This document shows positions 25,452-60,908 of a stretch of 64,000 bases of DNA, one piece after another. The DNA is from Dichotomocladium elegans (Eukaryota; Mucoromycota; Mucoromycetes; Mucorales; Lichtheimiaceae): NCBI GenBank assembly GCA_025716815.1, contig JAIXMN010000006.1, positions 1,240,001-1,304,000 of the forward strand, written 5' to 3'. The notes beneath the pieces are model-generated. The model worked only from the letters and a program-made list of their open reading frames with translations. It was not told where the DNA came from and did not search any database. How positions within the stretch are numbered: the stretch's first letter is position 1; each line of letters opens with the position of its first letter. Position numbers and translations under genes: made by a program.

Positions 25452-26751
25452 GAAATAATTCTGAACTTACTACCACACACATTCCCAAGCGAAAGAATAC
25501 AGACATTTGGACGAAAGAAGCGGGGATCAAGCGCAATTACACAGCGTACAATGACCAGGGCAAGGTCAGGTTCTTTTTAAACGGATATGAGAAGGACTTG
25601 AATGCATCGGTTGCTAGGAATCCATGTTTGTTCAGCCCTGGGATGGGAGAATAAAACACGAGAAAGACCGCGAGAGCATCTTTAAGAAACCTAACGCGAG
25701 GGGTCGTTCGCGTATTCTTAATGAAGAGCATAAAAGCGTTATCTTAGAATGCATTGATGAGGATCCATCTACTGTCCTAGAATAGCTGATGGAGCAGCTG
25801 CTCCAAAGATTTGAGGGTCTCAAAAGTATCTAAAATGACGCTTCAACGATTTATGAAAAACGAAGGCAACTTGCCATTGAAAATGGCTCGGTTTCAGCCT
25901 GTGGACAGGAATCGTGCTGCAAAGATCCAACAGCGCCATGACTGGGTGCGCAAATGGGACAATACCGACATTGACTTTAGAAAAAACTGCGTTTTCCTTG
26001 ATGAGTCTGGATTCCATATTAATATGAAACGCAGCATGGTATGGTCCAAGAAAGAGACTCCTGCAGTGGTCACAATACCAAAGACAAGAGCAAAGACAAC
26101 CACAATCTTGGAAGAAATCTCAGCATCAGGCGTCATTAAATGTAGCTTGAGACTCCCACAACCACCAGTCAAGAGAAGAAAGAGGTCAGGTCGATCTGAA
26201 CTTGCGAGTAAAGGACATTGTCTTAGCTTCCTTAAGGCTACGATGGACGAGATGAATAATGCAGCTATCCATAAGGCTGAGGATATCGATGTGTTTATCT
26301 TCCACCCTACTTGCCTGAACTCGATCCAACTGAGCAGGCTTGGTCAGCTGTCAAGAGCAAAGTAAAAGGCAATAAGTTACCCTATCATACCGACTTGTTT
26401 TCTTCTGCAATCTTCTTATATTCTAGATCCTCTGTAACTAATCATATCAGCCTAACTGAATGCCTCGAGAGGAAAGGATATGGGGTTTGGGTGGGACCAT
26501 GGTTTGGCTGCACCCGCGCAGGTCCCCCCCCATGACTTCGTCGAGGTGCGTTTGCCTTCATCTGCTTTCTCCGTTGCTTCTGCCGCTGGTTGTTGTCGTT
26601 GGTTCGTCGTCGTCCCTCCTCGTTTCTTTTGTCCCTCTTCCGCCATTGTTACTGCAATGGTACACTTTGCTACCTTCGAGGTACGTTGAAGAGTAAATAA
26701 GAGGGCTGATTTTTTTCCTGTTGACTAACGGCCTTCTTTACGCATGCGACA
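25449..26751 (+). mobile_element. Decayed Tc1/mariner transposase body, copy 2
   Basis: It begins at the Cdc50 junction and reads THIPKRKNTDIWTKEAGIKR, then after stops MKNEGNLPLKMARFQPVDRN, WVRKWDNTDIDFRKNCVFLD and ESGFHINMKRSMVWSKKETP, with the first catalytic Asp present. An open frame of 184 aa (25,811-26,365) covers the middle of the protein. The C-terminal catalytic block is shifted (HPTCLNSIQLSRL where SPQLNPIEQ is expected). A pyrimidine-rich, expanded region at 26,510-26,680 is absent from copy 1. Not functional. Confidence 0.83.
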
Positions 26752-55947: not shown

Positions 55948-56766
55948 TAGTATGGGAGGAATGATAAAGCAACCGTGGGTAGACAGACAGACGTGCTTAC
56001 CCTACGCTCAAACACCACCCCTTCTAACTTGCTTTCCGAGAAGTGATTTGTAACAAAGAATAAAAAAAAAAAGAAAATGTTCCATTTTCAGAGAAATAAC
56101 GAGGATGCAATGTGTATTTGCAGATGAGTAGTAAAGGGGAGGGGGAGAATGCGTGCCGAGATAGATAGATTATCGTTTCAAGAATGGGGCGGTTGTGGGA
56201 GATTCTCGAGCTTTTCTCTCACCCACGCTCCCCTTCCCAATAAAAAAAATCCAGCATTATTGCGACCCACCCTCCCCCATCTTTCGTCTTCTTGTAAGTT
56301 GAAAGAAGATAGGATTCGGGGACGAAAACGTTTTTCCCGCCCGACCAAAACACATCCATTCACAATAACCCTATGACAGCAGATCGAAAAAAAGAGCTAC
56401 TCGGCAATCAAAAATGTCAAAGGGACCAAGTTTATATGTGTTGTAGATGACGAGACAGCAAATATTCTTGTTAACAAGAAAAAAGTCTATTTGTTTGTCC
56501 AGGTCCCTTTTGTGGCCGTTAGTACATCGAAATACCGGACCAAGTCAAGAAATTGGCCTGTTATACTTTATTTTCAAAAATAAATTTCGCAGGTGGGGAA
56601 AAATTATGTCGCATGAAAATAAAATAAAATGGCGTATCAAGATGAAAAGGATTTCACATCGATTGGTTGAGAGATTTTAGTCACCAGAAAATATTATCCC
56701 TTCCCCAACACTTTAACTTACCCCGAAGGTATCCAGATGTGTGCCGGCGATAACCGACACGGAAAA
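55948..56766. other. 3' flank of Fanzor; intergenic
   Basis: No assignable gene. On the plus strand a frame stays open from about 56,371, after a possible acceptor (ATGACAG), to a TAA at 56,581 (contains TKFICVVDDETANILVNKKK), without a start codon or known family. The stretch 56,400-56,766 lies just downstream of the Fanzor stop, where the guide-encoding end of such elements is usually found. Confidence 0.35.
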
Positions 56767-58955
56767 TCATCGCTGTTGGCGACCTCGTCCTGGTCCTCTT
56801 CGTCTCACTCTTCGCTCGTCGGGCTCTGGTGATCTAGCCCTTCTTGCTAGGCGCCTGTCACCACCCGCAGGTGCTCGCCGAAACCTTTCCGGGACCATGC
56901 CATCGGCCCGAAAACTCCTGAGAATATGTATCATATTCAGACAGGCCGCCATATCACGGTTCCACAATCGCTGCCGAGGAGCGCCCTCTGCCATGCCTGC
57001 TGTACAGTTTTGATTTGAGCATCTGCACAAAATAAGCGACATCAGATTAACATTATTGTTTCAAACTCCTCCGCGAATAAGGCTTCATACCGTAGCAGGC
57101 CATGACAGATAACGTTTGGATTCTCGGCTCTTCGATAGGGGCGTGGGTTGGGTACCCTCCGGAAAGTAGAAAGGCTCTCGGTCTCGCACGCGGGGCAACA
57201 TCTGCTGGTCTTGAATTCGTCGATCAAGTATACATCAAAGCGACGTTCGCCTTGCTTGAGAAGTCGCCGGAATCCAACACCGCGGATTGGCTCGTGGTAT
57301 CGAGTGTTCGGGGCAGACCAATTACCCATCACAAATACCGCGTTGGGGCCAAACTTGTTGATCAGACCGTCCCTCAGCTTCTCATCTGCTCGTTGTTTGT
57401 TGATGTACGACGACAGACGGAGCTTTCGGAAAAGAGGTTGGGGATCAGCATTATGGGTGGCAGTATTCGCATAGAAGTCCTCGAGAACTTGGGACACCTG
57501 GGACCGGACAAGCAGGAAGCGGTCATAATCGGCACGATCCAAGCTGCGGGAATGCTCGCCAGCCATGCGTGCCTCGGCATGCACGACTTCAGGTTCCTCA
57601 TTCTTGAGCCTCTGCAATAACCTGCGGTACTTCTTGGTCTTGCGCACCTTGTCCTGACAAGGTTTGGAGTATCGGAACGTCAGACGGGCACCTCGCTCCG
57701 GCCTGGAATTCTCTGAGACGCAGAAAAGGAGGTCCCTCCTCCCAGGGTCGACGGTGACGCACCTACCAGCAATATTCTGGTGTTCCTGTGATGTCAGCAT
57801 GCTGACATAATTGGTCTCCTCCTCGACTCCTCGGTACTTTGCTCCGTATGATGGTCGTTGGTTGTTCGTCCTCTTAAAAACAGTGACGCCTACTCCATCA
57901 GTATGGATTGTGCCATGGAACTCGATCGTTCCGCCTTCCTGGGGTCTGAAAGCACGAGAGTCGAGGTCCACAACCTCTCCCCACAGAGCCAACTTCTGGC
58001 TGATGTCGTGTCTTGGCCTCTTTAGAATATGCTGGACAAGAATCGTGGTGTCGATCTGCATATAGCAAGGGGCCCAGGATCGGCGAAGCGGAAAACATTG
58101 GAAGCTGCGAAGACCATTGCGTTGGAAAACATAGGCAAGCTCTATGAACGGCCGGAAGTGGTTGGCTGAACGCGCCTTGGCGTCGTAGTAGATGCTTTGT
58201 TTTTGGAACTGGTACCCTTGGGGATAAGCATCCAAGACCGGTTGGATCTGGTCGAACGCTTGTCTGAGGAAAGCTGGTTCCGCCGGAATGTCATCCCTCC
58301 GCACACCTCGGCGGGCAATGGCGAGCTTGAAGCCTGTGGCATGGCGAGTGATGGTGTCGTAAATATCCTGGCGGATTTGCTCCTCGGTCCAGCCGAGTGC
58401 GTCCAGTTCACGTCTCCTCGCCGCTTTCCGCTCTCGAATGTTCAGGAGAGCATTCACCGCGCGCCGAAGGTGCTGCCCGAACCGCATGTTGATATTGTTG
58501 CAGTATGCAACAAACATCTTCTTACCTTCGAACGCAGAGCATTGCTGGGAATTCTTGAGTTGTGGCCGTTGGTACTGGGTGGCCTCGAGGTAATCCTCCA
58601 AAAACTCGCCGATCAGAGCTCGGCACTCGCCGGAAAACCCCCGGGTTGGACGAACTCGCTTGTCGAGCATGGAGAGCCACACCTCAGAGAAGAACTTTTC
58701 GTGCAGGAACTGTTGGAGGTTGAAGTCCGGCTCGCGTTCGCGCTTACGTAGGAAGATGTACTTGGCGAAGCTGTACGCATGGGTTGTTGTCGCATGGACA
58801 ACAGCGACCAAGTCCATCAACGGTTGGCGGTAGGCGGGGTTCCAGCGGATGCCTCGTATAGAGGTCTTGACACCTAACATACGGTCAGGGGGCCTGAGGT
58901 TGGGTTGGGCAGGGTTTACGCCCCTCCTCCTGGTGGGGTCGACAGGTTGTTCCAT
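56767..58955 (-). CDS. Fanzor: eukaryotic TnpB-like RNA-guided nuclease
   Basis: Two exons (58,955-57,091 and 57,022-56,767) with a 68-bp GT-AG intron close to 706 aa. The intron splits the zinc finger, and splicing restores CHGLL-R-CSNQNC. Visible residues: RuvC-I Asp403 in RCVTVDPGRRDLLFCV; at the canonical RuvC-II position Asn545 (FVMGNWSAP) instead of Glu; the alternative Glu580 in YLIDEFKTS, as reported for Fanzors; zinc ligands Cys587, Cys590, Cys623 and Cys628; RuvC-III Asp645 in RLWNRDMAACLNM. Known Fanzors use a guide RNA made from the element end to cut DNA. A possible 58-bp 5'UTR intron (59,031-58,974) precedes the ATG. No stops or shifts were seen. It looks richer in G+C than its neighbours by eye. 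The Arg-rich C-terminus may be nuclear targeting. Confidence 0.94.
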
Positions 58956-59264
58956 GTCTTCACCAGTAGAGGGCTGTGATATTATCTCTTAGCACAAATC
59001 TTCTAGTCATGTCTTATTCCAGAAGCCTTACCGTATAATGTCGGAATGTGCTTTTGTGTTCTTCGCCTTGGGTTGTATGAGTTGTGTAAGGTGAGAGAGA
59101 TGTGTAATACGAGTGTGTTTGTAACGGGTTTTAGAATACGCAAGTGGTAAAGAAAAACGGCTTGGTCGAACCTCATTATTTTATAGTAAATTAAGGTCCC
59201 CGTTCCAACCTGCGTGGATGGGGTACTATGAAGTGCATATCATATGATAAGCAAAAATACTCAC

Positions 59265-59565
59265 TACAACGAAATGTGTTTAAACTCCTTTATTTCCTTA
59301 TATAGGTTATCGATTTCAGCCTGTTGGAGGGGTAGGCACTGCTCAGGGCCTCCTGGTTCATCCGCTGCAACCGGCCCTCTAATTGGTGGATGAGTTCAAG
59401 GTCACCCGCCTCTTCAATGTCAAGCATTCATAGCAATGAATGCACTGTATCCATGTTCCTTTTTAGGGAAACATTCTACTACTGCATTTTTTCATCCTTG
59501 TTTCCTTTATACATCAACTTTTTTGATGGAACAATTGTGCTCATCACAATGTAGCCACGCGGATA
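59265..59565 (-). pseudogene. Decayed coding fragment, coiled-coil type, unknown family
   Basis: The minus strand reads LHCDEHNCSIKKVDV, then after a +1 shift YKGNKDEKMQ, two stops, RNMDTVHSLL, a stop, MLDIEEAGDLELIHQLEGRL, QRMNQEAL, and after another shift QQAEIDNLYKEIKEFKHISL. The pieces follow each other in order, so this is one degraded gene lying between Fanzor and a truncated mariner. I do not recognise the family. It abuts the mariner exactly where the transposase C-terminus is lost. Confidence 0.5.
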
Positions 59566-60676
59566 CCTTCAGATGTTCATGCTTATCCATTTCATCCATG
59601 GTAGCCTTAAGGAAGCTGAGATAATAATGTCCAGTGATAGTTTCCTTGCTTGCAGCTGCGGGCTGCCCCGCTCTGTTTCTTCTTTGGCTAGTGGTCGTAG
59701 GAGTCTCAAGCTACATTTAATGATGCCTGATGCCGAGATTGCTCCCAAGATGGTAGCTGTTTTTACTCTTGCATTCGGCACTGTAACTACTGCACAAGTC
59801 CCTTTCTTGGACCATGCCATGCTGCGCTTCATGTTAATATGGAATCCAGACTCATCAAGAAAAACGCAGTTTTCTCTAAGGTCGATGTCGGTCGTGTCCC
59901 ATCTGCGCACCCAGTCAAGGTGTTCTTGGACCTTTGCATCGCTATTCCTGTCTACAGGCTGAAACCGAGCCATTTTCAATGACAAATTGCATTCGGTTTT
60001 CATAAATCGATGGAGCGTCGTTTTGGATACTTTGAGACTCTTAAATCTCTGGAGCAGTTGTTCCATCAGCTGCTCTAGGACAATTGACGGATTCTCAACA
60101 ACCCATTCTAAAATAACACTCTTATCCTCTTCGTTGAGAATACATGAACGACCTCTGCCTCTACGTTTCTTAAAAATGCTGTCAGGGTCCTTTCCGTACT
60201 GTGATGTCCGTCGCTGAGCTGAACGAACATGGTTTCCTAGCAGCTGATGCACTCAATACCTTCTCAAACATCAGCTTGAAAAATCTGATCTTGTCTTGGT
60301 CAGTGTACGCTGTGTAACTGCGCTTGATCCCCGCTTTTTTCATCCGAATGTCTGTATCCTTTCTCTTGGGAATGTGCGTGGCAATAAGCTCAAAGTTATC
60401 TTTGCAAGATATGCTAAGCAGATATTCTGTATGAGAACAAACGGATTGCAGAGTACATTTCTTCATCAACGACATGGCCTTGACCATCGTAAAAAAAATA
60501 GATTGCTCATTTCAGAATGTAAATGGGTAGAGATGAATTTGCCAAGTTTCGCCGTGTATTGCGACATTTGCTTTGTCATCATGCGCAAAGATTTCTGGGC
60601 AAAACACGACTTCTATTTTTGTAATCCTGCGACTTCAGAACTGGCTGGGGTACGACTTTAATTTCTGAAAACACTG
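59566..60676 (-). mobile_element. Truncated Tc1/mariner element
   Basis: Transposase pieces on the minus strand: LLSISCKDNFELIATHIPKR, YTDQDKIRFFKLMFEKVLSA, KKRRGRGRSCILNEEDKSVI, FLDESGFHINMKRSMAWSKK, then it ends after SLRLPWMKWI. The C-terminal third with the last catalytic Asp/Glu is missing. A frameshift near 60,185 separates the N-terminal part. At the 5' side the element ends ...GAAAACACTG followed by TA (60,677-60,678), that is, CAGTG next to TA, as expected for a Tc1/mariner terminus and target site. It is the least decayed relative of the copies at 3.2 and 25.4 kb, and it supplies the reference for the 5' end at 18.35 kb. Confidence 0.82.
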
Positions 60677-60908
60677 TATGTACACGACCCTCATGCAAAG
60701 CCATCGGGGCACAGCGAGCTCCGAAAAAAGACTCGTAGTCCATTATTCTTTGAATCCAGATTCAGTGTATCGCTTCCCACCGAAACACTCCTTTTTTTGG
60801 TCCACAACCATGTCTATACACTGAAGCAGGGCCCATCCTGCGAAGCTAATCCTATCCAATATAATAAAACAATATTATGAACAGACAAACAAGTCTGGGT
60901 GTTATCCT

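Follow-up and report, generated by a model that had tools for sequence, protein, structure and literature searches.

A window of 64,000 nucleotides from Dichotomocladium elegans (the whole stretch that was analysed; contig JAIXMN010000006.1, positions 1,240,001 to 1,304,000) contains an intact gene for a Fanzor1 protein. Fanzors are eukaryotic RNA-guided DNA-cutting enzymes, and the biochemistry and structure of Fanzor1 have already been characterized. We consider it probable, at roughly four chances in five, that the window protein is the cargo of a Tc1/mariner-type element that lacks a working transposase of its own, that an RNA from the right end of the element guides it to cut DNA next to CATA, and that repair of such cuts retains the element. 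This account builds on what we observed here: the gene, the comparison across its splice junction, its catalytic residues, the ends of the element, its copies, and the motif on its left flank.

The window gene encodes a spliced Fanzor1 protein

The gene occupies three segments of the window.

57091..58955, minus strand: Fanzor1 exon 1, Met1 to the split codon 622, with D403, N545, E580, C587, and C590
57023..57090, minus strand: Fanzor1 intron, 68 bp, GT-AG, placed by alignment across the junction
56767..57022, minus strand: Fanzor1 exon 2 and stop codon, with C623, C628, and D645

The spliced CDS comprises 2121 nt and encodes 706 aa with a single, terminal stop, in agreement with a sequence-only reading that had described a Fanzor gene free of stops and frameshifts. 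The residues named in that reading (D403, N545, E580, D645, and a four-Cys zinc finger formed by C587/C590 and C623/C628) all lie at the positions it gave. Two motifs that separate Fanzor from TnpB each occur once in the protein: DPG at RuvC-I, at position 403, and ExxxxxxCxxC, which starts at E580 and places the alternative Glu six residues ahead of the zinc-finger CxxC. Splicing of the 68-bp intron (GTATGA...GTGCAG), also proposed in the sequence-only reading, is supported by comparison: the spliced protein aligns unbroken over the junction (HGLLR-CSNQNC against HGLLRCKNMSC in PpFz1 and HGLLGCTNPNC in SpuFz1), and the aligned intron has GT...AG borders in 14 of the 14 near-full-length copies listed, with a length of 57 to 69 bp, but 390 bp in L015. 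Read without splicing, the frame meets a stop 15 residues beyond the donor, ahead of C623, C628, and D645.

Searches against PDB chains gave PpFz1 (2e-128, in two stretches), SpuFz1 (1.1e-55), and GtFz1 (0.11) as the best matches; together with the DPG motif and the alternative Glu, the first two bear out the original Fanzor call. Judged by these alignments, the window gene is a Fanzor1, closest to the solved Fanzor1 proteins. D383, E541, and D606 of SpuFz1 (PDB 8gkh) fall on window D403, E580, and D645 in a 12-sequence MAFFT alignment, by which Glu580 is the equivalent of E541, described as metal-coordinating in the solved structure (PMC10432273), and the Asp-Glu-Asp triad of RuvC is D403/E580/D645. 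Glu580 had been singled out as relocated; it does align with E541, but its position is ordinary, because the alternative Glu is a published signature and hallmark of the Fanzor family (Yoon 2023, PMC10711439). The nearest solved relative, Parasitella parasitica PpFz1 (PDB 9cf0-9cf3), shows the DPG motif, the alternative Glu, and the zinc finger in the alignment, and differs from the window protein by about 110 additional residues between the positions aligned to window 500 and 509. We infer that this insert is the cyclophilin-binding FRI domain described in PMC11423790.

Among 8000 candidates scored, a protein search returned 20 matches, the best by E-value coming from Mucor mucedo (46% identity), Mucor saturninus (44%), and Rhizopus microsporus (47%), which points to a probable Mucoromycete host. 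Pfam gave no domain above its curated cut-off for the Fanzor protein; below it were Cas12f1-like_TNB (E 0.038 with exon 1, 0.12 with the whole protein) and SAM_SMF (E 0.032 and 0.039, respectively). It has been on record since 2013 that Fanzor1 genes occur in Mucorales, and also in Mariner elements that have TA duplications (PMC3627910), and the window protein is an additional member of this known group.

A Tc1/mariner-type element with a broken transposase carries the gene

The coordinates first assigned to the locus were right for the gene; the mobile element around it is larger, at 56566-60676. Its parts are as follows.

56566..60676, minus strand: Tc1/mariner-type element with Fanzor, TA duplications excluded; boundary common to homologous copies with intact ends
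60655..60676, minus strand: left terminal inverted repeat (CAGTGTTTTC...), from direct comparison with the right end
56566..56590, minus strand: right terminal inverted repeat (...GAAAATAAAG)
56564..56565, minus strand: right TA duplication; where copies keep an intact right end, the DNA beyond it varies
60677..60680, minus strand: left CATA on the element strand, the proposed TAM; TA duplication at 60677-60678, preceded by CA at 60679-60680
60182..60511, minus strand: N-terminal part of the transposase remnant, in a different frame from the next part
59569..60252, minus strand: transposase remnant, HTH_32 and first Asp of DDE_3, ending ahead of the second Asp
59560..59570, minus strand: site of a transposase deletion of about 220 bp, also found in the C112 copy (L011)

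Twenty loci around Fanzor copies have a common block, and those with intact ends stop at identical bases on each side, TA-CAGTGTTTTC on the left and GAAAATAAAG-TA on the right. The terminal inverted repeats and TA duplications, which are consistent across the intact-ended copies, are those of a Tc1/mariner element; within its 4.1 kb, the transposase remnant and Fanzor lie on one strand. Both Pfam matches of the remnant, HTH_32 and DDE_3, are under the curated cut-off. The Spu-1 element likewise has TA duplications and short inverted repeats, but is about 2.1 kb long with Fanzor as its single ORF, unlike the window element with its transposase remnant and one intron. The closer likeness is to the Fanzor1-bearing Mariner elements in Bao and Jurka 2013, in which transposase and Fanzor1 lie between terminal inverted repeats with TA duplications; PGv-1 and PUl-1 are described there as carrying both genes. 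Mucorales elements named in that study are given as MuDr or unclassified, in contrast to the Tc1/mariner-type element here.

In the window copy, as in eight other loci read, the transposase is either split or truncated. No open frame runs through it in the nine loci read (seven of the window's family, hereafter family 1, and two of a second family), the longest being 227 codons. Since no intact DDE/D transposase lies within it, the Fanzor element is non-autonomous, and would therefore move in trans, with the help of an intact relative. A 474-codon transposase frame on contig C44, open at the edge of the stretch examined and 86% identical in DNA over 924 bp, keeps FLDESGFH, VMDNAPIH, and SPELNPIE; D, D, and E are present, with 34 residues from the second Asp to the Glu. 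By its sequence, therefore, an intact transposase is apparently available in trans. A further fragment of the same kind of transposase lies in the window at 25814-26218 on the plus strand (66% identity, open frame of 191 aa).

Searches for an empty site, with at most 40 candidates scored in each, returned none for nine joined sites or for 26 further left flanks; it is therefore comparison among copies that supports the TA duplication and the assignment of CA to the target DNA. Of the 26 flanks, the one with many genomic matches (L047) turned out to be where another repeat, adjoining the insertion, ends. At that place, C112:221516 (L047, L069), the element lies directly beside the end of a repeat family (...AAAAATCCAGTA) found at many genomic places.

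Fanzor copies fall into two families

The earlier suggestion to establish copy number led to dozens of Fanzor loci in this genome, with at least 64 matches in the DNA search (best 40 of 147 candidates scored) and at least 81 in a protein search with exon 1 (71 candidates scored of 847). The 14 near-full-length copies listed are 65 to 100% identical, and only the window copy is fully open when read with its own exon structure; in the C40 copy, exon 1 is open and exon 2 contains a stop. Besides these two, at least 20 paralogues with 53 to 58% identity are free of stops from residue 23 or earlier to residue 621, and the exon-1 proteins of two that were read differ by one residue. These paralogues rule out the idea that the window gene is intact because it is unique. 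A second Fanzor1 family (family 2; L049, L050, and others) is about 54% identical, with many open exons 1; the transposase is decayed in both of its loci read (L049 and L050).

Shortened copies also occur (C44:427516-428694 and others on C70, C39, C35, C29, C90, and C34; L029-L035). In all seven read, a single junction joins element position ~882 to ~3780 and right-end sequence is retained in part or whole; four align over at least the terminal 22 nt, and the other three partly lack the right end. Their appearance is that of a non-autonomous subfamily that multiplied separately, and they resemble the Spu-1 "ghost" elements, which are likewise shortened with the right-end sequence kept.

The left flank carries a family-specific motif

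With an alignment query that starts at TA, CA precedes the left TA (CATA) in 30 of 33 family-1 left ends, a set made up of 26 loci, many of them picked by a query starting with ACA that leans toward CA, and seven added loci; CA is present in 25/26 of the former and 5/7 of the latter. The exceptions are L044 (TA), L077 (TT), and L079 (CC). Matches that began more than 3 nt inside the element, at truncated or diverged left ends (L015, L017, L024, L028, L034, L035, L047, L048, and L078), were left out, although extrapolation to the left end finds CA in L015, L047, and L048; the count also excludes four matches starting 21 or more nt inside and six loci in which no left end was found (L018, L019, L022, L023, L025, and L026). 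A pattern leaving both bases free gave CATA in 9/9 family-1 left ends. In a similar count for family 2, TA precedes the left TA (TATA) in 25/25 left ends. Among TA sites of the window, 8.2% are preceded by CA and 8.6% by TA. L079 (C47:210440-210600), whose left end has CC before TACTTTATTTTC, unlike the flanks of both families, may belong to a third related family.

The family-1 motif is one-sided: the mirrored TG follows the right TA in only 2 of the 14 right ends counted, all of them untruncated (left versus right, Fisher p = 7e-7). The family-2 right flank has TA after TA (TATA) in 6/7, which may reflect a symmetrical site or a longer duplication; this two-sided TATA is therefore weaker evidence for a TAM than the CATA of family 1.

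A candidate ωRNA and guide at the right end

Two further features are proposed at the right end.

56566..56663, minus strand: candidate omegaRNA scaffold in the conserved right end; z -2.8 against shuffles for the fold of the last 100 nt
56544..56563, minus strand: predicted guide in the host DNA that adjoins the right TA, by analogy with SpuFz1 as described in PMC10432273

We regard the right end as a candidate source of an omegaRNA scaffold, which would take its guide from the flank. The last 100 nt fold better than shuffled sequences (z -2.8), and the 203-nt region no better than shuffles (z -0.84). A consensus RNA fold has a stem in family 1 that is not common to family 2, and Rfam gave no match.

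Does the flank motif report Fanzor recognition?

The TAM measured for SpuFz1 is CATA, and SpuFz1 elements are described as carrying CA ahead of the left repeat (PMC10432273), which is also where family 1 carries it. This likeness supports CATA as the proposed TAM of the window protein. We also put forward a tentative reading, held at somewhat under even odds, in which two co-resident Fanzor1 families differ by one base in recognition, CATA for family 1 and TATA for family 2, after loss of an Arg in the WED domain. In SpuFz1, R96 contacts C(-4) and R291 its partner G (PMC10432273). R291 aligns with window R313 (MAFFT) or R315 (phmmer), positions at which family 2, whose protein entered the alignment as residues 1-616 only, has Cys and Met (stretch GCKMESH), and Q129/Q130 of SpuFz1 align with window Q137/Q138. 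The contacts N133 and R96 are replaced by A141 and T104 in the window protein, which counts against its use of CATA. The Arg match is suggestive only, because the helix with R291 is described as poorly conserved in PMC11423790, a source that also gives PpFz1 a looser TAM, ATN. If the reading is true, a TAM that changed naturally between paralogues is preserved in this genome, with a one-sided footprint in family 1. A literature search, with most subscription papers beyond its scope, found no report of co-resident Fanzor1 families with differing flank motifs.

It is also possible, at about one chance in three, that CATA and TATA are set by the transposase or belong to the mobile unit, and so say nothing about Fanzor recognition. 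In favor of this, shortened copies that lack most of the Fanzor gene still show a strong motif. Tc1-type transposases prefer palindromic, YATATR-like targets, and the right flanks fit this loosely: the first base after the right TA is T or C in 14/14 family-1 ends, and TATA predominates in family 2. However, given the similarity of the two inverted repeats, a preference of the transposase would be expected on both sides, and the family-1 bias lies mainly on the left; moreover, CATA equals the measured SpuFz1 TAM exactly. CA carried within the element would leave no other target duplication visible in the copies read.

Age and selection of the window copy

Compared among eight close copies, the window copy has ten private substitutions, none in the CDS (2121 nt) and two in the 68-bp intron, and three private indels, again none in the CDS, including a 1-bp insertion in the transposase. 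In a pool of six comparison copies, 112 private substitutions lie within the CDS and 123 elsewhere (Fisher p = 0.002 against 0/10 in the window copy). L015 was left out of this pool because its 5′ part is divergent; with L015 the pool becomes 146/230 and p rises to 0.016. The C112 copy has 12 in the CDS and 11 outside (p = 0.005). Under a looser rule, in which one other copy may share the base, the window CDS has six synonymous differences and one nonsynonymous, compared with 7 and 14 in the C112 copy.

We read the window copy as coming from a still-functional lineage. A gene that is intact yet silent, an unexpressed relic left open by chance, seems unlikely: 13 of the 14 copies of its family are broken and no continuous open transposase frame was found in the nine loci read, as a relic would have it, but ten changes in the rest of the element beside none in the CDS speak against it. 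Still less probable, in our estimate, is early domestication, in which selection at the level of the host, rather than its status as transposon cargo, retains the gene. The same 0/10 split with the private transposase insertion, the contrast with the six pooled copies, and the sole open frame among the 14 copies listed would all suit it. Against it, the contrast weakens once L015 is pooled, the numbers are small, and the copy was picked for being intact; private synonymous changes are also zero, which amino-acid selection alone does not explain, and the six-to-one ratio under the looser rule fits selection at the level of the element in an active lineage. The sequence-only description of a recent or selected copy thus stands in part: of the 14 copies, none but the window copy is fully open, and it lacks private CDS changes, but intactness as such is ordinary, because at least 20 other paralogues have an open exon 1.

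Proposed cycle and implications

In the explanation we favor, that of a Fanzor1 retained as cargo, the spliced mRNA would be expressed to yield the 706-aa protein with REC, WED, RuvC, and TNB parts, and a noncoding right-end RNA, reading through the inverted repeat into host DNA, would supply scaffold and guide. The complex would recognize CATA, formed by the left CA together with the TA duplication, beside a sequence matching the guide, its target being the empty site after excision or an unoccupied allele. Cutting at the empty site, followed by repair from the occupied copy, would restore the element in a homing-like form of retention.

The biology of Fanzors in their native hosts is little understood. 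This genome provides copies by the dozen, two families with open genes, and a broken resident alongside an open distant transposase, and the shortened copies that retain right-end sequence add to its value for Fanzor biology. If the flank motif is the TAM, TAMs would be readable from genome sequence, and the two families would represent a one-base switch in recognition with a candidate residue, testable in vitro.
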